Shown here piece by piece: positions 129-20,746 of a DNA stretch of 20,746 bases. Location: positions 1 through 20,746 of the IMG/VR virus record IMGVR_UViG_3300029955_000175. The stretch is one strand, 5' to 3'. Below the pieces are notes generated by a model. The model had not been told where the DNA came from. It saw only the letters and a list, made by a program, of their open reading frames with translations, and made no database searches. Positions within the stretch are counted from its first letter, which is position 1. The number at the start of each line of letters is the position of its first letter. The DNA comes from a virus. Both the position numbers and the translations under genes were made by a program.

Positions 129-722
129 ATTTCAGAACAAAAAATAGTAGATGAACGTATAATTGTTAGAAAGCCAAGATCAAAACGTTCATATATAAAT
201 GGTAACGATTTGCACGCTGCATTAGTAAAGTTTTATGAAGACGTGACAATTAGCGAAAAGAATAATAAAAAAACACCTGAGATTCCAAGATATATAGGTG
301 AATGTATTATGCATATCGCAACGAATCTATCAGGTAAAATAAATTTCGTTATGTATAGTTTTAGAGAAGAACTTGTCGGAGACGCTATCGAAAAGATGGT
401 CGAGGCAGTACACCTTCATAAATATGATCCAAATTTAAGTAAGAATCCTTTTGCTTACTTTACTCAGATTGCTTGGAATTGCTTCTTACAAAGAATTCAA
501 AAAGAAAGAATAGAAGCATACGTAAAGCATAAGAATATTGAAAATCTCATTATGCACGCTACAGATGAAAATATAGAATCATTACTTGATAATGATGAAC
601 ACAATAAAGTAATTAATAATTTTGAAAAGCCTAAAGAAAAAAATAATTATGCCAAGCATAAAAATCTCTCTTATGAGAAGAATAGAAAAAGACGAAATAC
701 TATAAATACTACTGAAAGTTAA
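129..722 (+). CDS. 55: Late-transcription sigma factor, T4 gp55-like
   Basis: A sigma-70-related factor that directs host RNA polymerase to TATAAATA-type late promoters, working in T4 with the sliding clamp and gp33. The predicted protein has 197 residues (T4 gp55 about 185). It matches remembered T4 gp55 in the N-terminal YINGNDLHAAL block (T4 YVNNKELLQAI), in the stretch on both sides of NPFAYFTQIAWNCFLQRIQKER (T4 [22 protein letters not shown]), and in a basic tail. The TTG at 210 would cut off the conserved N-terminus. The likely start is ATT at 129, behind AAGGAG; the second residue would be Ser, as in T4. It lies directly before a homing endonuclease and the gp47/gp46 pair, the T4 neighbourhood in the same relative order. 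Function is confident; the start codon is inferred. Confidence 0.88.
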   Translation: MSEQKIVDERIIVRKPRSKRSYINGNDLHAALVKFYEDVTISEKNNKKTPEIPRYIGECIMHIATNLSGKINFVMYSFREELVGDAIEKMVEAVHLHKYDPNLSKNPFAYFTQIAWNCFLQRIQKERIEAYVKHKNIENLIMHATDENIESLLDNDEHNKVINNFEKPKEKNNYAKHKNLSYEKNRKRRNTINTTES

Positions 723-8970: not shown

Positions 8971-9061
8971 ACCGGAATTGCATATCCGGGCATCGATTTA
9001 AAGTAATAACCAGTTTTTGCAGATAGTCTGCAAAAAAAGATACAGATCGTATCTTAATTTA
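8971..9061 (+). promoter_or_regulatory. Spacer with three consecutive hairpins
   Basis: Three perfect stems follow each other: CCGGA/TCCGG (8972-8976, 8985-8989), the 10-bp TTTTTGCAGA/TCTGCAAAAA (9014-9023, 9027-9036, three-base loop) and AAGATAC/GTATCTT (9037-9043, 9049-9055). None has a T-tract on the plus strand. The array precedes the ribosome site of a small helix-turn-helix gene, so it may be a structured leader or an RNA processing region. Confidence 0.5.
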
Positions 9062-9077
9062 ACTAAAGGAAAAGATA

Positions 9078-9230
9078 ATGCGTACACGTACAATTGATAG
9101 TATTGTCAAGAAGCTTCAGAAGGGCAAGACCCTTCGTGAAATCGCAACTCAGTATGGTATTTCAAACCAGAAGGTTTGGCGAATTGGTGCTTCAAAGGGT
9201 GTATATTCAGTGCGTTCAACAAAGGCATAA
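9078..9230 (+). CDS. Small helix-turn-helix DNA-binding protein
   Basis: A 50-residue protein with AAAGGA upstream. The core GKTLREIATQYGISNQKVWR fits a resolvase/LuxR-like helix-turn-helix: GKTLREIA as the first helix, the turn at YGIS, recognition helix NQKVWRIG. The flanks are basic. It is short enough to be only the DNA-binding unit, probably acting as a dimer on nearby promoters. Likely a phage transcription regulator; target unknown. It follows a highly structured spacer that might control its own expression. Confidence 0.72.
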   Translation: MRTRTIDSIVKKLQKGKTLREIATQYGISNQKVWRIGASKGVYSVRSTKA

Positions 9231-9242
9231 TTCGAAATAATT

Positions 9243-9401
9243 ATGTTTAAAGAAAAAAAGAACTTTACTGATCTAAAAAAACATAGTCCAGAAGTCGTTG
9301 ATTACGAGCCCTCTAAAGATGAATTTAGAGGTCATCGTGATAATCGAAAGAAGAAAAGGGACAATGAAAAGAAAGATAAAAAAGAAAGTTCTTGGAATTG
9401 A
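9243..9401 (+). CDS. Very small, highly charged protein
   Basis: A 52-residue ORF starting at ATG, 12 bases after the helix-turn-helix gene. Its second half is almost entirely Lys, Arg, Glu and Asp (RGHRDNRKKKRDNEKKDKKE), so it is probably disordered and may bind nucleic acid. The ribosome site is weak. It ends directly before a terminator, which fits the last gene of an operon. Existence moderately supported, function unknown. Confidence 0.5.
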   Translation: MFKEKKNFTDLKKHSPEVVDYEPSKDEFRGHRDNRKKKRDNEKKDKKESSWN

Positions 9402-9408
9402 TTCTATG

Positions 9409-9467
9409 GAGGGTGACAGACTAGGTTGGCGTAATGTCATATCGAATTCTGTTACCCTCTTTTTTTT
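9409..9467 (+). terminator. Rho-independent terminator with a long loop
   Basis: GAGGGTGACAG (9409-9419) pairs with CTGTTACCCTC (9449-9459), with one G-U pair, followed by eight T (9460-9467). The loop is 29 bases, longer than usual. It ends ten bases before the deformylase-like gene and overlaps nothing coding, so it could terminate the 8388 operon or act as an attenuator for the next gene. Confidence 0.75.
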
Positions 9468-9476
9468 GGAAAGTAA

Positions 9477-10016
9477 ATGACATTTAAATTAGAAATTAAA
9501 AAAAATACACCTAAGCTATTGACACCAGCAGAAGCATGGGATTTTCAAAATCCTCCTTTTAGTCTGGAAGATTTTTCTGTAGAGTTAGCCGAATTACTAT
9601 GGAAAGAAATGGCTTTAGGTCTGTCAGCTAATCAGGTCGGGTATCAGTATAAGATATTTGCTACGGTAGGTGATCCTACCTATGTTTTTGTCAATCCTCG
9701 AATTGTTCATTTTTCTGACGAAACTGTAGACCTTGAGGAAACTTCTTTTTCTTATCCGGGTTTTGTCATTGATAAAGTGCGTCCTAAGCATATTCGTATT
9801 CGTTTTGCTACACCTAGTAGCGAAGTCTTTACAATGCCATTTACAGGCATGACAGCACGAGTTATTCAGCAGCAGATGGATCATATCAATGGTATAGCAT
9901 TTTGGGATGGAATTTCCAAGCTCAGATTTGATATGGCTGTCAAGAAAGCTCAAAAATTAGGATTTAATTATTCGAATCTTCATTATAAGACAACTCCATC
10001 AGGACTAATAATTTAA
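9477..10016 (+). CDS. Peptide deformylase homologue with degenerate active site
   Basis: Peptide deformylase removes the N-formyl group from new proteins; several phages carry one. This 179-residue protein keeps motif 1 as GLSANQVG (residues 48-55, with the oxyanion Gln53) and the fold around VFVNPRI and SYPG. In motif 2 (normally EGCLS) it reads ETSFS, so the metal-binding Cys is Ser90. In motif 3 (normally HExxDH) it reads QQMDH, so the first His ligand and the catalytic Glu are Gln132 and Gln133; only His136 remains. Normal deformylase activity is therefore unlikely. The frame is otherwise intact and starts at ATG with GGAAAG upstream, so a retained non-catalytic role is possible. It lies between two terminators. 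Confidence 0.82.
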   Translation: MTFKLEIKKNTPKLLTPAEAWDFQNPPFSLEDFSVELAELLWKEMALGLSANQVGYQYKIFATVGDPTYVFVNPRIVHFSDETVDLEETSFSYPGFVIDKVRPKHIRIRFATPSSEVFTMPFTGMTARVIQQQMDHINGIAFWDGISKLRFDMAVKKAQKLGFNYSNLHYKTTPSGLII

Positions 10017-10034
10017 GGGCTTCGGCCCTTTTTT
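10015..10034 (+). terminator. Rho-independent terminator
   Basis: AAGGGC, a TTCG tetraloop and GCCCTT, running into six T (10029-10034). A textbook terminator that starts at the stop codon of the deformylase homologue and insulates the polymerase promoter. Confidence 0.95.
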
Positions 10035-10035
10035 A

Positions 10036-10064
10036 TTGACAAATTCCTCCTTGTAGGATAAGTT
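10036..10064 (+). promoter_or_regulatory. Candidate promoter for DNA polymerase
   Basis: A perfect TTGACA (10036-10041) just after the terminator. The -10 region at 17 bases (TAAGTT) is weak, so a phage activator such as a MotA-like factor may be needed (inference). Confidence 0.55.
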
Positions 10065-10077
10065 ATTAGGCTTAATT

Positions 10078-10082
10078 AGGAG
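10078..10082 (+). promoter_or_regulatory. Ribosome binding site for DNA polymerase at an ATT start
   Basis: AGGAG, six bases before ATT 10089. The next in-frame ATG is 180 bases on and would remove the conserved polymerase N-terminus. Confidence 0.75.
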
Positions 10083-10088
10083 ATTACC

Positions 10089-12596
10089 ATTTCACATTTT
10101 TACACATACGTCGCCAAGAAAGGTGACACCATCTTTGAACGTGGTTACAAAGATGGAAAGATTTATTCAAAAGAAACCCATTATGAACCTTATCTTTTCA
10201 TTGAAGATTTCAATGGGGATTATTCTACTATTGATGGTAAGAAAACAAAGCGTATCGACTTCGACTCCATGAAGCGAGCACGAAGTTATTTGTATAAAAA
10301 TAAAGATATACATAAGATTTATGGTTTTACAGATTTTGAATATACTTACATTTACGATAATTTTAAAAAAGGTTTTGAGTTTAATTTCGGTCTACTGAAT
10401 ATCGTCAACACTGACATTGAAACAGATTCTTCAGATGGCTTTCCAGACATACAGAAGGCCGACAAGCAGATTACCGCCATTACCTTAGCCAAGAAGGGTA
10501 AGACTCTTACGTTTGGCTATTTTCCCTATGAAAGCACAGAAACCAAAGTCTATGTCCAGTGTGATACTGAGAGAGAACTACTTCTGAAGTTTATAAAGGC
10601 TTGGAATAGTGTAGAATGGCAACCTGATATCGTTACGGGATGGAACATTGAAATGTTCGACATTCCTTATATAATTAATCGTATCATTGTCGTTCTAGGT
10701 GGTCAATATGCCGAAAAACTTTCTCCGTTTGGAATTATTGAAGAAAAAGAAATCGAGCAGAGAACAGGTAAGATAGTCCAGACATTTTCAATCTTTGGAA
10801 TTTCTATTATAGATTATTATGCAGCTTACAAAAAGTTTGCTGTGAATGAAAGAGAATCTTACAAGCTCGACTTCATTGCAGAATACGAACTAGGTGAGAA
10901 GAAGGTTGACTATTCCGAGTACGGAAGCCTACACAACCTTTATGTACAAAATCCACAACTTTACTATACTTACAATATTCACGATGCTGTTCTGATCGAA
11001 AAGCTTGAAAATAAACTTCATTATATTGAACAGATTGTAAACATTGCATATATTGAAAGAGTAAACTATGAAAATACTCTTTCTACTGTTAAGCCTTGGG
11101 ATGTGATTGTCCATAATTATCTTATGGACAATCGTATTGTTGTGCCTCAGATTAGTGTAAAGGAATCTGATTACAGAATTGAAGGAGGTTACGTAAAAGA
11201 GCCTTTACCGGGTTATTATGAATATGTGGTTTCAGTAGACTTTACGTCTTTGTATCCTTCAATTGCTATGCAATATAACATGTCTCCTGATACTTTTGTG
11301 CAACAGTTTCCTTTTAAAAAGGAAAACATAACTCGTCAGTTTGAAAAAATTATCAATGGCGATATGTCAGAAGTGACAGCCGAATTAAAGCGTCGTGATT
11401 ATTGCATGACTGCAAATGGATGTCTATTCAAGCGTGACAAACGAGGGTTCGTTCCTACACTCATGAAAGAATTCTTCGACGAGCGTAAACGTGTTCGTAA
11501 GCTTGAGGCTATTGCTGAAAAGAAATATGAAGAAGAAAAAACCGATGAAAATCGTAATACTTTCCTAAAGCATAAGAATCTTCAGACTGCATTCAAGTTG
11601 ATTAATAACTCAGGTTACGGTGCTATTGCCAATAAGTATTTTCGTTGGTTTACTAATGCTATTGCTGAAGGAATTACTCTTACTGGTCAGCTAACCATCA
11701 AGTATGTAGAAGATCGCATTAATAAGTATTTGAATAAAAAATTCAAGACTGAAGGCGTTGTTTATGTAGTCTATTGTGACACCGACTCTGCTTATATTAC
11801 ACTTAAGGAATTCATAACTCAAAGTGGTATTGTCGATAAGGACGAGGCTATTAAGGCAATCGTAAAGTTTGCCGAGGAAGAAATGTGTCCATATATCGAT
11901 AGTGTCTGTCAGGAATTGGCCGACAAATTGAACGCTTTCGAGTTAAAGACTTCTATGAAACTCGAAAAGGTTTGTGATCAAGTTTTCTTTACAGCAAAGA
12001 AGCGTTATGGTTTAAATGTAGATTATAGTGAAGGTATTTACTATAAAGAACCTAAGTTAAAAGTCACTGGTCTGGAAACTGTAAGGTCTTCTGTACCTAA
12101 GAAATGTCGTAAGGCTCTAGAGCACACATTTAAATTGATTTTTAAAAAGGATCGACAAAAACTTATAGAATATGTTGAAGAATTTCGAAAAGAATTCTAC
12201 AATATGAGTTTCGAGGATATCGCAAAACCTTCTTCGGTTCAAGGACTTAAGGAGTATTACGATAAGGATCGTCTATACAAAAAGGGCTGTCCTATGCATG
12301 TTCGCGGTGCATTGATTTATAACAAGTTTATTCAGGATCGAAATCTTACTAATCGTTATCGACCAATCGAGGATCACGATAAAATTAAGGTTTGTTATCT
12401 GAAGCTTCCTAATCCGACACACCAAAATGTGATTGCAATCGGAGACGATAATCCAGAAGAACTTGACATTGCATCTTATGTAGATTACAATCTGCAATTC
12501 GATAAAACTTTCATACAGCCATTACAGGCTGTATGTGATGCTGTCGGATGGGAAACAAAGAAGGTTTATACCCTCGACGATATTTTTGGAGACTAA
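10089..12596 (+). CDS. 43: Family B DNA polymerase, T4 gp43-like
   Basis: The replicative polymerase with proofreading exonuclease, 835 residues from the inferred ATT start (T4 gp43 898). Exo I NTDIETDSS has Asp109 and Glu111; exo II is TGWNIEMFDIPYI; exo III YNIHDAVL. Polymerase motif A is VDFTSLYPSI (Asp384), motif B KLINNSGYGAIAN (Lys503) and motif C YCDTDSAY (Asp564, Asp566). The C-terminal TLDDIFGD resembles the T4 clamp-binding tail. The first 60 residues (SHFYTYVAKKGDTIFERGYK, then DGK...YEPYLF) match the T4 start (KEFYISIETVGNNIVERY...). ATG 10269 would remove them. The HD-hydrolase gene follows one base after the stop. Confidence 0.97.
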   Translation: MSHFYTYVAKKGDTIFERGYKDGKIYSKETHYEPYLFIEDFNGDYSTIDGKKTKRIDFDSMKRARSYLYKNKDIHKIYGFTDFEYTYIYDNFKKGFEFNFGLLNIVNTDIETDSSDGFPDIQKADKQITAITLAKKGKTLTFGYFPYESTETKVYVQCDTERELLLKFIKAWNSVEWQPDIVTGWNIEMFDIPYIINRIIVVLGGQYAEKLSPFGIIEEKEIEQRTGKIVQTFSIFGISIIDYYAAYKKFAVNERESYKLDFIAEYELGEKKVDYSEYGSLHNLYVQNPQLYYTYNIHDAVLIEKLENKLHYIEQIVNIAYIERVNYENTLSTVKPWDVIVHNYLMDNRIVVPQISVKESDYRIEGGYVKEPLPGYYEYVVSVDFTSLYPSIAMQYNMSPDTFVQQFPFKKENITRQFEKIINGDMSEVTAELKRRDYCMTANGCLFKRDKRGFVPTLMKEFFDERKRVRKLEAIAEKKYEEEKTDENRNTFLKHKNLQTAFKLINNSGYGAIANKYFRWFTNAIAEGITLTGQLTIKYVEDRINKYLNKKFKTEGVVYVVYCDTDSAYITLKEFITQSGIVDKDEAIKAIVKFAEEEMCPYIDSVCQELADKLNAFELKTSMKLEKVCDQVFFTAKKRYGLNVDYSEGIYYKEPKLKVTGLETVRSSVPKKCRKALEHTFKLIFKKDRQKLIEYVEEFRKEFYNMSFEDIAKPSSVQGLKEYYDKDRLYKKGCPMHVRGALIYNKFIQDRNLTNRYRPIEDHDKIKVCYLKLPNPTHQNVIAIGDDNPEELDIASYVDYNLQFDKTFIQPLQAVCDAVGWETKKVYTLDDIFGD

Positions 12597-14469: not shown

Positions 14470-14773
14470 TAGACAATATGATCCGAGAAATCCTAGTAAA
14501 TTGATTACCATTCAAGAATTAGTATGGCTTTATGAAGAACAAATAAAGCTTTCTATGTTGAAATCTAAAGATTCAACACGTCTTGTAGCTTGTTTATTAG
14601 GCATTTATTTAGCTGAAGAAGTTTTATATTATTCTACACATACTGTATATCATAATATAGGTAATAAAGAAGAAAAGAAAAGAATTATTGGTGATATTGT
14701 TAACGAAATAACAAAAAGACTTGGTTGTGAAGTTTATGGTTGTACAGCGGCAATTTTAGGAGAATATCTATAA
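14450..14773 (+). CDS. Small protein, unknown
   Basis: A 107-residue protein overlapping the previous gene by 20 bases; GAAG is near its ATG. It is mainly helical (ITIQELVWLYEEQIKLSMLK, then LVACLLGIYLAEEVLYYSTH) with a final NEITKRLGCEVYGCTAAILG containing two Cys. The moderately hydrophobic centre is too short and mixed to call a membrane helix. Family not recognised. Its end contains the ribosome site of the following membrane protein gene. Confidence 0.62.
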   Translation: MTTSTLNRQYDPRNPSKLITIQELVWLYEEQIKLSMLKSKDSTRLVACLLGIYLAEEVLYYSTHTVYHNIGNKEEKKRIIGDIVNEITKRLGCEVYGCTAAILGEYL

Positions 14774-15570
14774 TATTTCTTAGTATCATCTTATTCTTAG
14801 CAGCGTTTGAATTATCAGGTATTTCAGCTTTCTTTAGTATAACAGGCATGACGGCAATCTTTCCGTCTGCCTATTGGTCAATTGTCGTTATGGGAATCGC
14901 GTTAGAAGTCGGTAAGCTGTCTTCTATCAGCTTTCTTCATTTCCATTGGAAAGAAGTTCCGGGTCTGATTAAGGCGTATCTTATTAGCGCCATAGTTATT
15001 CTCATGTTCATTAATTATATTGGACTGTTCGGCTACCTTTCAAAGGCTCATATCGAGCAACAGGTTAATAATAGTACTCAGTATGCACAAGTAGAAATTG
15101 TACAATCGAAGATTGATAACGAAACTAACACCATTACCGATTTAGATAAACAGATTGCTCAAATCGACAATGCCTTACAGAAGCTCACAGACACAGGCAG
15201 GGCAGCATCTTCACTTGCACAGGCACAGAGCCAGCGAAAGACGAGAGATAGCCTTGTAAAGGCCAAGACAGATCATTTAACGACACTCGATACACTCAAG
15301 AATCAAAAGATAACCGCAGAAGTTTCCAATAAGAAATTAGAAGCTGATTTTGGTCCTTTAAAATATATTGCTGATGCAGTCTATGGTAATCCAACGCCAG
15401 AACAAATGGAAAATATTGTAAGATGGATTATTTTTATTTTAGGATTCGTGTTTGATCCTCTGGCTTTATGTCTGTTGATATCAGCACAATTTACTCTGAC
15501 AAATCGAAAGAAAAGGTTGACATATCCATCAAACGAGGGTATGATAACTATTGATGATAGTAAACTCTAA
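14770..15570 (+). CDS. Membrane protein with a periplasmic or cytoplasmic coiled coil
   Basis: About 266 residues. The first three membrane helices (LSIILFLAAFELSG, then SAYWSIVVMGIALEVGKLSS and KAYLISAIVILMFINYIGLF) are followed by a long Gln/Thr-rich coiled coil, residues 105-190, and a last helix (IVRWIIFILGFVFDPLALCL) with a basic tail. I recall similar uncharacterised proteins in T4-type cyanophages. The clear AGGAG at 14758-14762 stands seven bases before ATA 14770. Alternative starts are TTG 14740, with a poor ribosome site, or ATG 14848, which would lose the first helix. The ATA start is tentative. Function unknown; a membrane scaffold or exclusion protein is possible. Confidence 0.72.
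   Translation: MIFLSIILFLAAFELSGISAFFSITGMTAIFPSAYWSIVVMGIALEVGKLSSISFLHFHWKEVPGLIKAYLISAIVILMFINYIGLFGYLSKAHIEQQVNNSTQYAQVEIVQSKIDNETNTITDLDKQIAQIDNALQKLTDTGRAASSLAQAQSQRKTRDSLVKAKTDHLTTLDTLKNQKITAEVSNKKLEADFGPLKYIADAVYGNPTPEQMENIVRWIIFILGFVFDPLALCLLISAQFTLTNRKKRLTYPSNEGMITIDDSKL
15517..15545 (+). promoter_or_regulatory. Consensus host-type promoter before the uvsX operon
   Basis: TTGACA (15517-15522), exactly 17 bases, TATGAT (15540-15545). It lies inside the end of the membrane protein gene, 34 bases before the ATG of the small gene that precedes uvsX. Confidence 0.8.
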
Positions 15571-15578
15571 GGAGTAAT

Positions 15579-15857
15579 ATGGCACATTATGCATTTATTC
15601 TGGCATGGAAACAGCCACCAGAATCTATACCTGAAGAAGAATTTGAATTAATCTTGAAATTTTTCAAGGCTTATAGATTCAAAATGTTTGCAAATCAAAT
15701 ACCGCAAATATGGGTTGCAGAAGATGAGGGTCTAAATCCTGTAATTAGAATTGTAGGAAGAATTCCTATGTCAATTACTAGGCATTTAACCTCAATCTAT
15801 TGTACTCGAATGTCAGATACATCTGGCGATTATATAGACAAAATCGGAGCAAAATAA
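15579..15857 (+). CDS. Small protein upstream of uvsX, unknown
   Basis: A 92-residue protein with AAGGAG five bases before its ATG and a consensus promoter close upstream. The sequence looks like a compact alpha-beta fold (AHYAFILAWKQPPESIPEEE, then FKMFANQIPQIWVAEDEGLN and VIRIVGRIPMSITRH). No known motif recognised. It is two bases from uvsX and surely cotranscribed, so it may assist recombination; that is inferred from position only. Confidence 0.7.
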   Translation: MAHYAFILAWKQPPESIPEEEFELILKFFKAYRFKMFANQIPQIWVAEDEGLNPVIRIVGRIPMSITRHLTSIYCTRMSDTSGDYIDKIGAK

Positions 15858-15859
15858 GT

Positions 15860-16924
15860 TTGGTTAAGGCAAAAAAAGAAAAACTTGGTGGTTCATTAAT
15901 TGAAAGATTACAAAGAGCCGGTTCAGGAAACATAACATCTACGTTAGCTTCTGATAGTGCATTTAATGTGCAAGCCGACACAGTGGCTACTACAGTACCT
16001 ATTATCAATGTAGCATTTTCTGGTAAGTTAAACGGTGGATTTGTTCCGGGTCTTACAATTCTAGCTGGCGAGTCCAGAACTTTCAAGACTTTACTTTCAC
16101 TTTTACTCTTAAAATCTTACTTAGATAAGTTTTCAGATGGTATCGGAATTATTTACGATATCGAAAGAGGCATCACCAAAGAATATTTAGATATGGTCGG
16201 AGTTGATTCTGATCGTGTACTTCTGCTTAGAGACATAATTCATATTGAAGAATTGAAATTCGATATGGTTAAGAGATTAGAAGAAATTGAAAAAGGTGAT
16301 CACGTATTCTTTCTTGTAGATTCTTTGGGTATTATTGCTTCAAATAAAGAAATTGAAGACGCCATAGAAGAAAAATCTGTTACTGACATGACTCGTGCTA
16401 AATCTCTTAGAAGTTATCTTCGCGTCGTTTCTCCTTACTTCTTAAGTAAGGAAATTCCTTGTGTAATGATTAATCACGTTTATCAGACTTTAGAGAATTA
16501 TTCAAAGACTGTAGTAGGCGGTGGTACAGCTATTATGTATATTGCTAATCAGGTTCTTATTGTTACTCGTGCTCAAGAGACTGAGGGTGAAGGTAAAGAT
16601 AAAGAATTATTAGGATATAAATTTACCTTACATATTGAAAAATCACGATTTGTAAGAGAAAAGGCAAAATTAGCCTTTACAGTCCTTTTCGATGGTGGTA
16701 TAGATGAAACTTCTGGCCTCCTTGAAGAAGCCAAGGAATTTGGATTGATAGAAGGTGGCGGCGGTGGATGGTATACTTATAATGGTAATAAGTATCGTTC
16801 ATCACAATTTACCAAAGAATTTTGGAAGCCAATTCTAGCAAATGAAGAATTCCAAACATTTGTTGAAAACAAATATAAATTATCAGGAAATTATGATGAT
16901 AAAGAAGATTCTAGCGAAAGTTGA
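15860..16924 (+). CDS. uvsX: RecA-like recombinase UvsX
   Basis: A strand-exchange ATPase of T4-type phages that forms presynaptic filaments for recombination-dependent replication. 354 residues from TTG 15860 (T4 UvsX about 391); GGAG lies ten bases upstream. The nonstandard Walker A AGESRTFKT (69-77) parallels T4 GPSKSFKS. Other blocks match T4: YDIERGITKEYLDMVGVD, FFLVDSLGIIASNKE (Walker B), SVTDMTRAKSLRS, IPCVMINHVYQT, TVVGGGTAIMY, HIEKSRFVREK and FDGGIDETSGLL. The acidic tail (DDKEDSSES) parallels the acidic T4 tail that regulates DNA binding. The C-terminus is shorter than in T4. An upstream in-frame start at 15800 would overlap the preceding gene and is not needed. Confidence 0.96.
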   Translation: MVKAKKEKLGGSLIERLQRAGSGNITSTLASDSAFNVQADTVATTVPIINVAFSGKLNGGFVPGLTILAGESRTFKTLLSLLLLKSYLDKFSDGIGIIYDIERGITKEYLDMVGVDSDRVLLLRDIIHIEELKFDMVKRLEEIEKGDHVFFLVDSLGIIASNKEIEDAIEEKSVTDMTRAKSLRSYLRVVSPYFLSKEIPCVMINHVYQTLENYSKTVVGGGTAIMYIANQVLIVTRAQETEGEGKDKELLGYKFTLHIEKSRFVREKAKLAFTVLFDGGIDETSGLLEEAKEFGLIEGGGGGWYTYNGNKYRSSQFTKEFWKPILANEEFQTFVENKYKLSGNYDDKEDSSES

Positions 16925-17051
16925 TATCGAATTCTTTAAGAAATTTAAAGAAAGATACGAAGGTTGGGACATTGTACGATATGAAGATAATTCGCTCGTC
17001 ATGATCCCACCAAAGCGTGAACCTATTGTAAGGAAACGAAGATGGCCATGA
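16893..17051 (+). CDS. Small basic protein, unknown
   Basis: A 52-residue ORF from ATG 16893 (or 16896), with AGGAAA just upstream; it overlaps the uvsX end by 32 bases and the next gene by ten. Sequence: MMIKKILAKVDIEFFKKFKE, then YEGWDIVRYEDNSLVMIPPK and a very basic RKRRWP end. It is shorter than, and unlike, UvsY. The basic tail suggests nucleic acid contact. No family recognised. Confidence 0.58.
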   Translation: MMIKKILAKVDIEFFKKFKERYEGWDIVRYEDNSLVMIPPKREPIVRKRRWP

Positions 17052-17479
17052 AAATTGGTGTGACAGGCACTCGTAATGGCCTTAGTAAGGACCAAAAAGA
17101 ATTTGCTAATACTGCATTATTCAATATTCCTTTAGGAAATCCATTAGAAAAATATGAATTTCATCATGGAAATTGTATTGGTGTGGACGTTGAAGTTGCT
17201 GCCATAGCAAGGCAATATAGTTATCACATTGTATGTCATCCTCCGATGATTAAAGATTTGATAGGAGACTTCATATCTGATGAATATCGACCTCCCTTAA
17301 CATATTTTCAGAGAAATCGTAATATAGTTAATGAAACAGAACTTTTGCTTGCATTTCCTAAAGAAATAGAGAGACAAGCAAAAGGAGGAACGTGGTATAC
17401 GGTAGATTACGCTAATAAACGTAATAAAGCTGTAATTATTATATTTCCAGATGGTAGTACAAAAGGGCATAACATTTAA
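17042..17479 (+). CDS. SLOG/DprA-like nucleotide-binding Rossmann protein
   Basis: A 145-residue protein from ATG 17042 (AGGA seven bases upstream). The opening KIGVTGTRNGLS is a Rossmann strand-loop of the SLOG (LOG/DprA-like) type. HHGNCIGVDVEVAAIARQY gives the second conserved G-x-D segment, and YFQRNRNIVNETELLLAFP matches the R-N-x-x-I segment of DprA- and YAcAr-like SLOG proteins. KGGTWYTVDYANKRNKAVII follows. SLOG domains bind nucleotides or nucleic acid; some sense or make signalling nucleotides in defence systems. Specific ligand not deducible. Confidence 0.75.
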   Translation: MAMKIGVTGTRNGLSKDQKEFANTALFNIPLGNPLEKYEFHHGNCIGVDVEVAAIARQYSYHIVCHPPMIKDLIGDFISDEYRPPLTYFQRNRNIVNETELLLAFPKEIERQAKGGTWYTVDYANKRNKAVIIIFPDGSTKGHNI

Positions 17480-17754
17480 TGTGGAAAACTTTAGCAGTAG
17501 ATATTAGCGATGATATTATATCAATAGATGGTAACGTCTGTACATTTGATGTACTCCATGTTATTGTAACTGAAAAATTTCCCCCGGATGAAGATTTAAA
17601 ATACTTCTACGAGGAACTATCTACAGATATAGAACTCGGTCTGACTGATCTTGTTCCATTGAAAGACTATCTATTAGTCCGAACGGAAATTTTAGACGAA
17701 GAAGAAATTAACAAATGGAAACAAATTCTTGGAGAATATAAAGAAAATGAGTAA
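17479..17754 (+). CDS. Small acidic protein, unknown
   Basis: A 91-residue protein whose ATG shares a base with the preceding stop (TAATG), so it is probably coupled. It is acidic (MWKTLAVDISDDIISIDGNV, then FPPDEDLKYFYEELSTDIEL and a charged helix EILDEEEINKWKQILGEYKE). No recognisable motif or membrane segment. The following gapR-like gene overlaps it by eight bases. Confidence 0.66.
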   Translation: MWKTLAVDISDDIISIDGNVCTFDVLHVIVTEKFPPDEDLKYFYEELSTDIELGLTDLVPLKDYLLVRTEILDEEEINKWKQILGEYKENE

Positions 17755-18007
17755 TACAGAAGTATCAGGTACAGAAGAAATAAACTCAGGTCATCTTCGT
17801 TCTTTTATTGAGCGTATTGAGCGTCTTGAAGAAGAAAAGAAGGTAATTGCCGAAGACATTAAAGACGTTTACGTTGAAATAAAGTCTAATGGCTTTGATG
17901 TAAAGATTGTACGCACTATTGTCAAGCTCCGTAAGCTAGATCGTGATAAGCGTCATGAAGAAGAAGAAATTCTTTCACTTTATATGCAAGCCATTGGTAT
18001 GAATTAA
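17747..18007 (+). CDS. gapR: GapR-like (DUF2312) DNA-binding protein
   Basis: An 86-residue protein, close to the usual GapR length. After a short polar head it has the family core GHLRSFIERIERLEEEKKVI, then AEDIKDVYVEIKSNGFDVKI, VRTIVKLRKLDRDKR, an acidic EEEE and LYMQAIGM. GapR in alphaproteobacteria encircles over-twisted AT-rich DNA ahead of replication and transcription forks and aids topoisomerases. A phage copy could help replication of an AT-rich genome or displace host GapR (inference). ATG 17747 lies in the end of the preceding gene; a TTG at 17729 is an alternative. The strong match points to an alphaproteobacterial host. Confidence 0.9.
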   Translation: MSNTEVSGTEEINSGHLRSFIERIERLEEEKKVIAEDIKDVYVEIKSNGFDVKIVRTIVKLRKLDRDKRHEEEEILSLYMQAIGMN

Positions 18008-18096
18008 TGACTGTTAAACAAGAAAGCATAACTGTTATACTTATAACATTAATTGTGCTGTATATTTTAGGTTATACTATAGTTTATGGACCATAA
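18007..18096 (+). CDS. Tiny single-pass membrane protein
   Basis: A 29-residue ORF in TAATG overlap with the gapR-like gene: MTVKQESITVILITLIVLYI and then LGYTIVYGP. One membrane helix after a short polar head. No independent ribosome site; translation would depend on coupling. The chained overlaps in this stretch support it, but it is very short. Confidence 0.45.
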   Translation: MTVKQESITVILITLIVLYILGYTIVYGP

Positions 18097-18099
18097 TTA

Positions 18100-18168
18100 A
18101 TGCCAGTATTTTTAATTTGTGTTTTAGCAGTAATATTAGCAGTCGCAACAATTTTAGGATATCATTAA
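18100..18168 (+). CDS. Tiny hydrophobic peptide
   Basis: A 22-residue ORF (MPVFLICVLAVILAVATILG, YH), essentially one membrane helix. It ends immediately before the GTG of the next membrane protein gene and begins three bases after the preceding tiny ORF. No clear ribosome site. Support is its position in a tight chain of hydrophobic ORFs. Confidence 0.38.
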   Translation: MPVFLICVLAVILAVATILGYH

Positions 18169-18750
18169 GTGTTTTTACCGTTTGATTTAGATTTATTTGC
18201 ATTTTTCTTTTTAACTCTTATTTTTCTGAGTTATAGATTTTGGATCGGACTTCCGATATTAATTATTTTTTATAGTGCTTTATTATCATACTTTGGATTT
18301 AATCCAATATCAAATTCTTATCAATGGCTTTCTGAGAATTATGTAAAAGCCATTCTGTACGTATTTACATATGTTGCCATTGGTGTATTATGGTCAATAT
18401 TCATGTGGTATGTAAAAGTAAAGAAATGGATAGGTGAAGTTAAAGTTAAAAAAGCTAATTATGATAATTTAGCTGTCAAAAAAGATTTAAATTTTAAAGC
18501 TTATTATTCCAGAGTATCTTACGACACACTTGACTCTATGAAGGTTTCTAATTATAAGTCAGAAATCATTTTCTGGATTAGTTTTTGGTGGTTTTCATTC
18601 ATTGAAACCTTCTTCGGAGAATGGCTCAAGAATTTCTTCAACGGAATCTATACTCTTTTCAGTAGCTTATATGGTGCAATTTTGTCAAATGAATTAAAAA
18701 AAATTGGAATAGATAATAAATCTGTTGACATCGATAAGGAAGTAGGATAA
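18169..18750 (+). CDS. Multi-pass membrane protein
   Basis: A 193-residue protein from GTG 18169, directly after the preceding stop. About four hydrophobic segments are visible: FLPFDLDLFAFFFLTLIFLS, then GLPILIIFYSALLSYFGF, YVFTYVAIGVLWSIFMWYV and, after a basic loop (residues 83-125), the aromatic IIFWISFWWFSFIETFF. The tail is charged. No family recognised. Together with two tiny hydrophobic ORFs it forms a membrane-protein cluster; lysis or superinfection functions are possible but unproven. Confidence 0.7.
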   Translation: MFLPFDLDLFAFFFLTLIFLSYRFWIGLPILIIFYSALLSYFGFNPISNSYQWLSENYVKAILYVFTYVAIGVLWSIFMWYVKVKKWIGEVKVKKANYDNLAVKKDLNFKAYYSRVSYDTLDSMKVSNYKSEIIFWISFWWFSFIETFFGEWLKNFFNGIYTLFSSLYGAILSNELKKIGIDNKSVDIDKEVG

Positions 18751-18753
18751 ATA
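18725..18753 (+). promoter_or_regulatory. Possible promoter for tRNA-Asn
   Basis: TTGACA (18725-18730), 17 bases, TAAATA (18748-18753), a mediocre -10. GATAAATA (18746-18753) also resembles a late box. Either could drive the tRNA at 18787. It overlaps the end of the membrane protein gene. Confidence 0.5.
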
Positions 18754-18776
18754 TAAAGCATGAATCTTTAATTAAG

Positions 18777-18877
18777 ATTAACTGGCTCTGAGGTGGCCGA
18801 ATGGCAAGGCTCGCGACTGTTAATCGCAGGACTCCAAAAGAGAGTAGGTTCGATTCCTACCCTCAGAGCCAGTTAAT
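18777..18877 (+). repeat. 17-bp perfect inverted repeat extending the tRNA-Asn acceptor stem
   Basis: ATTAACTGGC before the tRNA continues the acceptor stem and pairs with GCCAGTTAAT after it, giving 17 uninterrupted pairs (18777-18793 with 18861-18877). The CCA end is buried in the helix. T residues follow at 18877-18882, so the structure may also terminate transcription. Confidence 0.85.
18787..18871 (+). tRNA. tRNA-Asn (anticodon GTT) with long variable arm
   Basis: Acceptor stem TCTGAGG/CCTCAGA, discriminator G and encoded CCA, as in bacterial tRNA-Asn (T1-A72, G73). The D-arm is GCC/GGC. The anticodon arm is CGCGA, loop CTGTTAA, TCGCA, with a C27-A43 mismatch. The T-arm is GTAGG/CCTAC with loop TTCGATT. 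The variable region has 15 bases with a CTC/GAG stem, which is class II and abnormal for Asn. The loop differs by one base from the CTGTAAA of tRNA-Tyr. The gene sits in a longer inverted repeat. Confidence 0.85.
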
Positions 18878-18900
18878 TTTTTAAAAGGTTCGAATTTTAC

Positions 18901-18935
18901 TATAAATGCTCCGAAGATTAATTTCAACGGAGTAT
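18901..18935 (+). promoter_or_regulatory. Ribosome-site-masking hairpin with overlapping late-promoter-like box
   Basis: ATGCTCCG (18906-18913) pairs with CGGAGTAT (18928-18935), one G-U pair. The right arm contains CGGAG, the Shine-Dalgarno of the HNH gene. TATAAATG (18901-18908) differs by one base from the T4 late box. Initiation about seven bases after it, near 18915, would give an mRNA without the left arm. A T-tract follows (18935-18941), so the hairpin may also terminate early transcripts. Confidence 0.6.
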
Positions 18936-18939
18936 TTTT

Positions 18940-19473
18940 TTGTCTAAAAATTCTGAAGGTGTAATTAGATGGCGTATTAAAACAAAATCTTTAATTATTG
19001 AACATATGGGTGGTTGTTGTCAGATATGTGGTTATAATCGTTGTCAAAACGCTTTAGATTTACATCATATTAATCCTAAATTAAAGGAGTTAACATTTGG
19101 TGAAATTAGAGTTAATCCTGTTGCTATTGCAAAAATTGCAGAAGAATTAAAAAAATGTATTTTATTGTGTGCAAATTGTCATAGAGAATTTCATGCAGGA
19201 TATATTTGTTTACCTGATGATTATGCCATTTTTGATGATAAATTTATACAAAATTCAAGACGTGAGATTGACGAACGAAAAGAAAGAGCAAATCAAAAAA
19301 TTAAGAATAAATTAAAAGGTGGTAAGCGTTTAAAAATTCTCTTGACGAACGAAGAATTTATTGCTAAGTTTCAATCTGAATTTAAGGGTAACAAATCTAA
19401 ATTTGCCGAGTTCCTTAATGTTTCTGAAGCTGCTGTCAGAAAAAGACTGAAGAAGATCGAGAGTATAAAATGA
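18940..19473 (+). CDS. HNH homing endonuclease with C-terminal helix-turn-helix
   Basis: A 177-residue protein from TTG 18940, seven bases after CGGAG. The HNH zinc-type module is complete: CQICGYNRC, LDLHHINPK with the catalytic His, and ILLCANCHREFH with the closing Cys pair and His. After a Lys-rich linker (residues 105-135), FKGNKSKFAEFLNVSEAAVR and KRLKKIE form a helix-turn-helix for site recognition. It lies between a tRNA and a deaminase gene, the usual setting of a mobile endonuclease. It overlaps the deaminase gene by four bases. Expression seems controlled by the upstream hairpin. Confidence 0.88.
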   Translation: MSKNSEGVIRWRIKTKSLIIEHMGGCCQICGYNRCQNALDLHHINPKLKELTFGEIRVNPVAIAKIAEELKKCILLCANCHREFHAGYICLPDDYAIFDDKFIQNSRREIDERKERANQKIKNKLKGGKRLKILLTNEEFIAKFQSEFKGNKSKFAEFLNVSEAAVRKRLKKIESIK

Positions 19474-19880
19474 AGAAGATCGACATTTTTAATTTCCTTT
19501 TCAAGTCGGCTATTGCGATTGATGAAGTCGCGGCTAATGCTCGACTCGTCTCGATTATCACCTACAAGAACACTGTTGTTTCTGTAGGCTTTAACAAAAT
19601 GAAATCTCATCCTTTCCAGAAGAAGTTTGGAAAGAATTCTGAGGCTATTTTTCTTCATTCTGAAATTGACGCTATCAAGAATGGTCTGCGTCATATCGAT
19701 CAGGACGACTTTAAGAAGTGCGAGCTTTATAGCCTGCGTGTCAAGCGTGAAAGCCGTAACGGACCTTTTGTGACTGGCATTTCTATGCCTTGTGATGGAT
19801 GCATGAGAGCAATTGTTACATTTGGTATTAAAAAGGTGTTTTACACCGAAAATGAAAAAAACTGCTTTACTTGTCTATAA
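19470..19880 (+). CDS. Cytidine/deoxycytidylate deaminase-family protein
   Basis: A 136-residue zinc-dependent deaminase. LHSEIDAI (about residues 52-59) supplies the His ligand and catalytic Glu, and SMPCDGCMRAI (about 110-120) the PCxxC Cys pair. The core is FFKSAIAIDEVAA-like helix, TYKNTVVSVGFNK strand, then the two motifs and the GIKKVFYT strand. Substrate could be dCMP, cytidine or another base; T4-type phages usually carry a dCMP deaminase, which is longer. The ATG overlaps the HNH stop. No allosteric insert is visible. Confidence 0.85.
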   Translation: MKKIDIFNFLFKSAIAIDEVAANARLVSIITYKNTVVSVGFNKMKSHPFQKKFGKNSEAIFLHSEIDAIKNGLRHIDQDDFKKCELYSLRVKRESRNGPFVTGISMPCDGCMRAIVTFGIKKVFYTENEKNCFTCL

Positions 19881-19883
19881 ATA
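19876..19883 (+). promoter_or_regulatory. Perfect late-promoter box
   Basis: TATAAATA, the exact T4 late consensus, at the end of the deaminase gene and 11 bases before tRNA-Gln. Function inferred from the gp55 homologue in this window; such octamers occur by chance in AT-rich DNA. Confidence 0.5.
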
Positions 19884-19893
19884 AAGAGTATAT

Positions 19894-19968
19894 TCTGGAA
19901 TGGTGTAATTGGCAGCACGCAACTCTCTGAAAGTTGAAATACAGGTTCGAGCCCTGAGTCCAGAGCCA
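19894..19968 (+). tRNA. tRNA-Gln (anticodon CTG)
   Basis: A 75-base cloverleaf: acceptor TCTGGAA/GTCCAGA (last pair mismatched), discriminator G and encoded CCA. The D-arm is GTGT/GCAC, the anticodon arm CAACT, loop CTCTGAA, AGTTG, and the T-arm ACAGG/CCTGA with loop TTCGAGC and a terminal A-A mismatch. The variable region is short. The T1-A72 pair and G73 agree with Gln. The two mismatches make it slightly weak. Confidence 0.8.
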
Positions 19969-19979
19969 ATTTTTTAATA

Positions 19980-20085
19980 ATGTGCTTAGATGGAGAATAG
20001 TTTAATTGGTAAAACAATCGACTTTGAATCGATTAACAGGAAATGCTTGTGTAGGTTCGAATCCTACTTCTCCATCTAAGCACAT
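19980..20085 (+). repeat. 18-bp perfect inverted repeat extending the tRNA-Gln acceptor stem
   Basis: ATGTGCTTAGA before the tRNA pairs with TCTAAGCACAT after it, continuing the acceptor stem to 18 uninterrupted pairs (19980-19997 with 20068-20085). It resembles the repeat around tRNA-Asn. Confidence 0.87.
19991..20075 (+). tRNA. tRNA-Gln (anticodon TTG) with long variable arm
   Basis: Acceptor TGGAGAA/TTCTCCA; D-arm GTTT/AAAC; anticodon arm ATCGA, loop CTTTGAA, TCGAT, so anticodon TTG; T-arm GTAGG/CCTAC with loop TTCGAAT. All stems are complete. The variable region has 17 bases with a five-pair stem (ACAGG/CTTGT), which is class II and not normal for Gln. The acceptor TGG start agrees with Gln identity. 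The 3' end reads TCTA, so CCA must be added after processing. Confidence 0.85.
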
Positions 20086-20127
20086 CAATTTCTACCGTTA
20101 GATAAATAATAAAACGGAGAAATTGAT
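20084..20127 (+). promoter_or_regulatory. Long hairpin masking ribosome site and start codon, late box in the loop
   Basis: Left arm 20084-20099 and right arm 20113-20127 form 15 pairs with one bulged A. The right arm contains CGGAG and the first two bases of the ATG at 20126. The 13-base loop holds GATAAATA (20101-20108), close to the late box. A transcript starting near 20115 lacks the left arm and leaves the ribosome site free. Confidence 0.7.
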
Positions 20128-20674
20128 GCAGTCTGATTTAATAAAACAATATCTTATTGAAGGTAAATCTTTTAAAGAAATACAAAGCGTTGTAACTATT
20201 TCTAAAGCTACATTATCGTATCATAAGAAAAAACTTGGTTTACCAACGTTATCCTGTGGTAAGAGATATAATTGGAAATTGATAGGTGAAGACCTTGACA
20301 ATGGTTATGATATATAATATATTATAGATAAGTATGGTGTTTCAAATCATACTCTTTTAAATGCTAAATATAAAAATAAAATATTTTTTGAGATTCCAAA
20401 AAAGACATTAGAAATTTATACTGTAGAAAATCATTCTAAAGTTGGTTCAAATATAAGAAATAAAATCAAAAAGTTAATAAAAGAAAAAAACGGAATTCTT
20501 GAATGTCAAGAATGTGGTGTTGGAGAAATTTGGAATAATAAGAAATTAGTTCTTCAGCTTGATCATAAAGATGGAAATCCTAAGAACAATTTTATTGACA
20601 ATTTAAGAATTTTATGTCAGAATTGTCATTCTCAAACACATACATTCGCTGGCAGAAATGTAAAAAGGAACTAA
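20126..20674 (+). pseudogene. HNH homing endonuclease interrupted by an in-frame stop
   Basis: One reading frame, 182 codons, broken only by TAA at 20315-20317 (codon 64). Before the stop: a helix-turn-helix (GKSFKEIQSVVTISKATLSY) and the beginning of a second repeat (WKLIGEDLDNGYDI). After the stop the repeat goes on (YIIDKYGVSNHTLLNAKYK), then CQECGVGEIW, LDHKDGNPKNN and DNLRILCQNCHSQ form a full HNH zinc module. The intact frame on both sides implies a recent nonsense mutation, stop readthrough, or a sequence error. It lies directly after a tRNA and before the kinase gene. Confidence 0.82.
20295..20323 (+). promoter_or_regulatory. Consensus promoter sequence inside the broken HNH gene
   Basis: TTGACA (20295-20300), exactly 17 bases, TATATT (20318-20323), spanning the in-frame stop. 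It may be chance, or may drive the HNH half or the downstream kinase. No good ribosome site follows closely. Confidence 0.45.
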
Positions 20675-20675
20675 A

Positions 20676-20746
20676 ATGAAAAAATATATTTGGCTTCTTG
20701 TAGGGCTTCCGGGTGTAGGTAAGTCAACTTGGCTTAATAATCATGC
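20676..20746 (+). CDS. P-loop kinase, probably polynucleotide kinase (partial)
   Basis: The first 23 codons of a gene cut by the window edge: MKKYIWLLVGLPGVGKSTWL, then NNH. Walker A GLPGVGKSTW follows a single strand at the N-terminus, close to the start of T4 polynucleotide kinase (MKKIILTIGCPGSGKSTW). T4 Pnk repairs tRNA cut by host anticodon nucleases and heals 5' ends, which would fit the tRNA setting. Other small P-loop kinases are possible. AGGA lies shortly upstream of the ATG. Confidence 0.7.
   Translation, partial: MKKYIWLLVGLPGVGKSTWLNNH

Follow-up and report, generated by a model that had tools for sequence, protein, structure and literature searches.

How might an endonuclease gene lodged beside a phage tRNA gene be held back until late in infection? 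The question is raised by a 20,746-base fragment of an uncultured T4-like phage (virus record IMGVR_UViG_3300029955_000175; the whole analyzed stretch is hereafter called the window), in which a hairpin covers the start site of a reading frame. An earlier note on this DNA had proposed that the hairpin silences an HNH gene on readthrough RNA and that a late promoter in its loop yields RNA free of the left arm, by the logic known for T4 I-TevI. We consider it probable, at roughly 0.72, that the hairpin is a 5′ element for late gating, part of a homing-endonuclease cassette lodged where a phage tRNA gene ends.

The window encodes a gp55-type late sigma factor, a DNA polymerase, and UvsX. The match of the sigma gene to PHROG 234 (E 9e-40) indicates that the phage encodes its own gp55 late sigma factor. 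A nucleotide search against named phages returned no match, and three further contigs were 100% identical to window positions 14470 to 20746 (6.3 kb). The genes for the gp55-type sigma (129), a ClpP-like protease (6123), and the polymerase (10089) have 5′ ends without ATG, GTG, or TTG, and each carries an ATT about 7 nt after a strong Shine-Dalgarno sequence. For the polymerase, the ATT falls in an alignment precisely on the ATG annotated as the start of the Acinetobacter phage AB1I1M-1 polymerase, and AUU appears from these sequences to be the start codon of all three genes.

Table 1. Features of the window discussed in the text (positions in the window).
Feature	Position	Strand	Remark
gp55-type late sigma factor gene	210..722	+	frame open upstream to ATT at 129
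TATAAATA, 18 nt before tRNA-Gln(ctg)	19876..19883	+	
18-bp perfect stem (19980-19997 / 20068-20085), abuts hairpin	19980..20085	+	
tRNA-Gln(ttg), long variable arm, directly upstream of hairpin	19991..20075	+	
Left arm of hairpin	20083..20099	+	11 + 5 paired bases, A20094 bulged
GATAAATA, T4-type late-promoter octamer in loop, predicted +1 near 20114	20101..20108	+	motif and geometry
Right arm of hairpin, holds Shine-Dalgarno and start codon	20113..20128	+	
Shine-Dalgarno GGAG, fully paired in hairpin	20116..20119	+	
63-aa open frame masked by hairpin, weak HTH match	20126..20317	+	ends at in-frame TAA
HNH endonuclease domain, same frame past TAA	20318..20674	+	conserved Cys/His/Asn residues kept

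The hairpin and the late-promoter motif in its loop

The left arm consists of CATCAATTTCT (20083 to 20093), the bulged A, and CCGTT (20095 to 20099), and the right arm of AACGG (20113 to 20117) followed by AGAAATTGATG (20118 to 20128). Positions 20083 to 20093 pair with 20118 to 20128 and positions 20095 to 20099 with 20113 to 20117, which encloses a loop from 20100 to 20112. The predicted structure therefore comprises 16 pairs, and both GGAG and the ATG (20126 to 20128) are paired within the right arm. The 15-pair stem reported in the earlier note was thus recovered with one additional pair, and exactly 15 pairs persisted when the tRNA and the 18-bp stem were added to the fold. Folding of the 84-nt region gave −19 kcal/mol (z −4.45), a value equaled by none of 200 dinucleotide shuffles, and the arm score was likewise reached by 0 of 200 shuffles of the left flank (z 6.7). 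The tRNA and the hairpin together folded into separate neighboring stems at −56.5 kcal/mol (z −8.07). Six hairpins of the same ungapped score class occur in the 20.7-kb window, and it is placement, not ungapped score, that distinguishes the masking hairpin from the five others.

The presence of GATAAATA in the loop, as first noticed, was confirmed. T4-like late promoters consist of TATAAATA at positions −13 to −6 (PMC1524935). An octamer so positioned would set the start near A20114, and the left arm, which ends at 20099, would therefore be absent from late RNA; at the level of the motif, the promoter is thus placed as the proposed escape demands. The late RNA is predicted to begin with ACGGAGAAAUUGAUG; its leader would span just 12 nt or so, and the Shine-Dalgarno sequence would lie 2 nt from the 5′ end. 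The first base of the window octamer is G rather than T, a position that is poorly conserved in T4 relatives (PMC1524935). Within the −45 to −14 zone of genes, G-first octamers made up 27 of the 79 octamers in one set of T4-like viral contigs and 8 of 119 in a second set, which had been selected for T. By these counts, genes of related contigs are often preceded by GATAAATA. Four [TG]ATAAATA octamers are found in the window, all on the plus strand and 18 to 41 nt ahead of either an endonuclease gene or a tRNA, although this pattern was spotted after the fact. From motif and geometry, we infer that GATAAATA would direct late transcription.

The following sequence of events is proposed. Readthrough RNA, including RNA started from the octamer at 19876 that would serve the tRNAs, would keep both hairpin arms; the Shine-Dalgarno sequence and the AUG would then be paired, and ribosomes would be blocked. 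Repression by the hairpin is what its pairing would predict. Once the gp55-type late sigma acts, the loop octamer GATAAATA would direct initiation at about 20114, and the resulting RNA, devoid of the left arm, would present an open start site. As far as sequence can tell, this T4-like late-gating logic is well supported, given the gp55-type sigma gene, the frequent occurrence of GATAAATA before related genes, and the loss of the left arm from the predicted late RNA.

An interrupted HNH gene next to a tRNA gene

The gene behind the hairpin is not the intact HNH gene that had been supposed. The frame opened by the masked ATG meets a TAA at 20315 to 20317 (codon 64) after 63 codons, and a 118-aa HNH domain continues in frame after this stop codon, with no in-frame ATG, GTG, or TTG before the domain. 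The same TAA is present in four of four contigs, i.e., the window and the three identical ones, and an intact endonuclease reading frame was therefore found in none of them. The HNH signature itself is clear (PHROG 14736, E 7e-24), and the 118-aa part retains the invariant residues C63, C66, H83, N95, C100, C103, and H104. A database search with the N-terminal 63 aa found no match. With the TAA at codon 64, translation would now yield a 63-aa HTH fragment.

Two ways around the stop codon were considered. Reading of the TAA as sense is unlikely, since the window contains no suppressor tRNA and TAA serves as a normal stop for its other genes. If the HNH half were translated separately, it would lack an ATG, GTG, or TTG; an AUU start, such as this phage seems to use elsewhere, would be possible, but no Shine-Dalgarno sequence precedes it. 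Two contigs from other samples (L334 and L337) begin exactly at window position 20620 and overlap the window end (20620 to 20746) by 127 bases. Such a shared start resembles a branch in the assembly graph and suggests that strains differ within the HNH gene. No empty-site relative was found among the five contigs that contain the downstream gene, three of which carry the HNH gene and two of which begin inside it. The nonsense codon is presumably recent, and an intact allele probably either left the device behind or has it in common with this copy. With the gene broken, the device may no longer be under selection.

Upstream, the 18-bp stem corresponds to the acceptor stem of tRNA-Gln(ttg) plus 11 extra flanking pairs. 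The variable arm of this tRNA is class II-like, and it lacks the encoded CCA that terminates each of the other four tRNAs of the window. Unmasking through tRNA processing was rejected, as cleavage at the 3′ end of the tRNA would not disturb the hairpin.

Recurrence of the layout and the rival readings

An HNH profile search of viral contigs yielded 572 relatives, from which the best 80 were kept; all counts of relatives given below refer to the 73 unique loci among these best 80 of 572. Stems were judged by explicit stem scores and not by a loose pair count. RBS-masking stems were found in 24 of the 73 relatives and in 4 of 113 control open reading frames (ORFs) from the same loci (Fisher P = 6e-8), and 10 of the 23 relatives with an octamer at −50 to −14 carried a masking stem better than 95% of left-flank shuffles, compared to 6 of 78 late structural genes with an octamer (P = 2e-4), with both P values being indicative only, given the common ancestry of the relatives and the rule-based calling of starts. 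The arm sequences are wholly different between members (L309, L317, L318, L325, L326, and L327), so it is the pairing and not the sequence that is kept. Direct orthologs of the window hairpin are limited to identical copies, in which the arm columns are invariant.

The layout, for which the earlier note had suggested a search in related phages, recurs in these 10 HNH relatives and also at two further endonuclease genes. A GIY-YIG endonuclease gene of the same phage (L005, 8289 to 9029, minus strand) has TATAAATA in the loop of a hairpin that masks its Shine-Dalgarno sequence, and at the HNH homolog of the 440-kb Salicola phage SCTP-2, CATAAATA occupies the loop of a long hairpin that masks the RBS (L143, 1280 to 1357). 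GIY-YIG relatives were too few to serve as a second family test. In the former contig, an RNase H gene (L005, 9028 to 10230) is apparently split into 9028 to 9591 and 9850 to 10230 by an antisense endonuclease-like remnant, and the hairpin preceding this remnant still has TATAAATA in its loop. A scan for TATAAATAATA...GGAGAA...ATG returned ordinary late structural genes, most of which lacked masking stems; these genes served as the control set. A scan for an arm complementary to the Shine-Dalgarno sequence around TATAAATA returned 80 stretches, versus 24 with a scrambled arm; the matches, in T4-like contigs (L148 to L227), were mostly tail-sheath genes, plus other late structural genes, and the layout is therefore not specific to endonucleases.

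The relatives are also closely associated with tRNA genes. Among the 73 unique relatives (best 80 of 572), 72 have a tRNA within their locus of about 5 kb, and these loci hold 7.8 tRNAs per 5 kb; the corresponding densities for two further phage locus sets are 0.30 and 0.0. When a tRNA lies at the 3′ end, as in 39 of these relatives, the HNH stop codon falls at tRNA positions 8 to 10 (U8-A9-G10) in 12 and at positions 13 to 15 in 6. Examples of the U8-A9-G10 stop in the downstream tRNA, taken from loci L254 to L332, are L301, L302, L306, and L309. A copy of the tRNA 5′ part is found upstream of the HNH gene as well in L302, L306, and L304, and in the first two the hairpin's left arm and the beginning of the octamer are provided by this copy. 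We infer homing from these arrangements, which point to tRNA genes as the target of this HNH family; the window copy, which has a tRNA upstream only, is a less certain case. A wider reading, which we offer tentatively and somewhat doubt, would be that of a broad family specialized in phage tRNA genes, whose cassettes insert into tRNA genes or at their borders, often terminate within the following tRNA by using its U8-A9-G10 as stop codon, and carry a late-promoter hairpin, sometimes built from a tRNA remnant, that silences the nuclease on tRNA-operon RNA. The window copy would be a decaying member of it.

Late gating thus has in its favor the nonrandom fold, the sigma gene, the geometry of the octamer, and the return of the device in relatives and in another endonuclease gene of the phage, while the broken gene, the G-first octamer, the very short predicted leader, the occurrence of the layout before tail-sheath and other late genes, and the five hairpins of similar score count against it. 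The best-surviving rival, which we nevertheless judge improbable, is that the hairpin masks the start but the octamer is no promoter, the nuclease being kept nearly silent on tRNA-operon RNA. The leading G and the closeness of the predicted start to the Shine-Dalgarno sequence would agree with it, as would the relatives (best 80 of 572), in which stems scoring at least 20 occur in 24 of 73 and octamer and stem together in 9. It does not account for octamers upstream of 23 of these 73 relatives versus 9 of 113 control ORFs, nor for the location of all four window octamers 18 to 41 nt before an endonuclease gene or tRNA, and G-first octamers do precede genes in related contigs.

We give little credence to the view that the hairpin belongs to the tRNA, as a 3′ processing, stability, or termination element overlapping the start of a dead gene by chance. 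Its abutment on the 18-bp tRNA stem and the interrupted frame downstream are what this view would expect, but an intrinsic terminator is ruled out by the absence of a U-run on either strand, the other four window tRNAs have no similar neighbor, the right arm is exactly the Shine-Dalgarno sequence plus the ATG, and the device also occurs at a gene without a flanking tRNA, the L005 GIY-YIG gene. Least likely of all is a chance inverted repeat ahead of a decaying reading frame, for which the in-frame nonsense codon and the six hairpins of one score class could be cited, yet no shuffle out of 200 reached the fold or arm score, the hairpin sits on the Shine-Dalgarno sequence and ATG with the octamer in its loop, and the device recurs across the family with different arms.

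Comparison with known systems

Late RNA escapes an RBS-masking hairpin in T4 I-TevI, I-TevII, I-TevIII, and segB (PMC2988022), and in T4 e and soc, initiation at a late promoter within the leader eliminates the RBS-masking stem (PMC3014915). As positive controls, T4 segB and e behaved like the window in the folding tests. Aeh1 mobE is reported to be a free-standing HNH gene in which a late-promoter hairpin sequesters the RBS (PMC2988022), features seen in or predicted for the window gene as well; Aeh1 late promoters carry a CTAAATA motif (PMC1524935). The I-TevI-like logic put forward in the earlier note accordingly fits the sigma gene, octamer, geometry, and recurrence, but the contrast it drew with I-TevI, that of a free-standing gene, fails, since segB and mobE are free-standing with the same device.

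Late gating of a tRNA-associated HNH gene would extend a T4 control device to a distant uncultured T4-like phage. The recurrence gives statistical support for the device in a tRNA-associated endonuclease family in which pairing is kept while sequence changes, and selection for late-only expression of mobile endonucleases becomes testable in many phages. The finding also ties in with a recent study in which SegB is reported to amplify tRNA genes under anti-phage defense (PMC13096335).

The closest isolate relatives of the window HNH domain are the F-TflIV-like HNH genes of Tequatrovirus (52 to 58% identity), which adjoin a tRNA cluster much as the window gene adjoins a tRNA; in Escherichia phage BP32, such a gene (L144, 1322 to 2047) lies directly before tRNA-Leu, where T4 has tRNA-Gln. 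Their N-terminus is shorter than that of the window gene, and the octamer is absent from the 120 nt upstream. The I-Tev genes share the late escape from a masking hairpin but are intron encoded, whereas T4 e and soc follow the same stem-removal logic without being endonucleases. The mobE gene is intact and is inserted in a protein gene, nrdA, and not in a tRNA cluster. In T4 segB, as in the window, the start lies about 40 to 50 nt after a tRNA, the hairpin masks the Shine-Dalgarno sequence and AUG, and an ATAAATA octamer with a non-T first base (CATAAATA in segB) lies within the hairpin, in the left arm in segB and in the loop in the window. The predicted leader of the window gene is shorter than that of segB or most relatives, and segB, a free-standing GIY-YIG gene between tRNA-Ile and tRNA-Arg, is intact and active, whereas the window gene is HNH and interrupted. 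The window device is hence closest to segB by position and to Aeh1 mobE by nuclease class. The device itself was already known from T4 and Aeh1; what is new is its recurrence in a tRNA-cluster HNH family.
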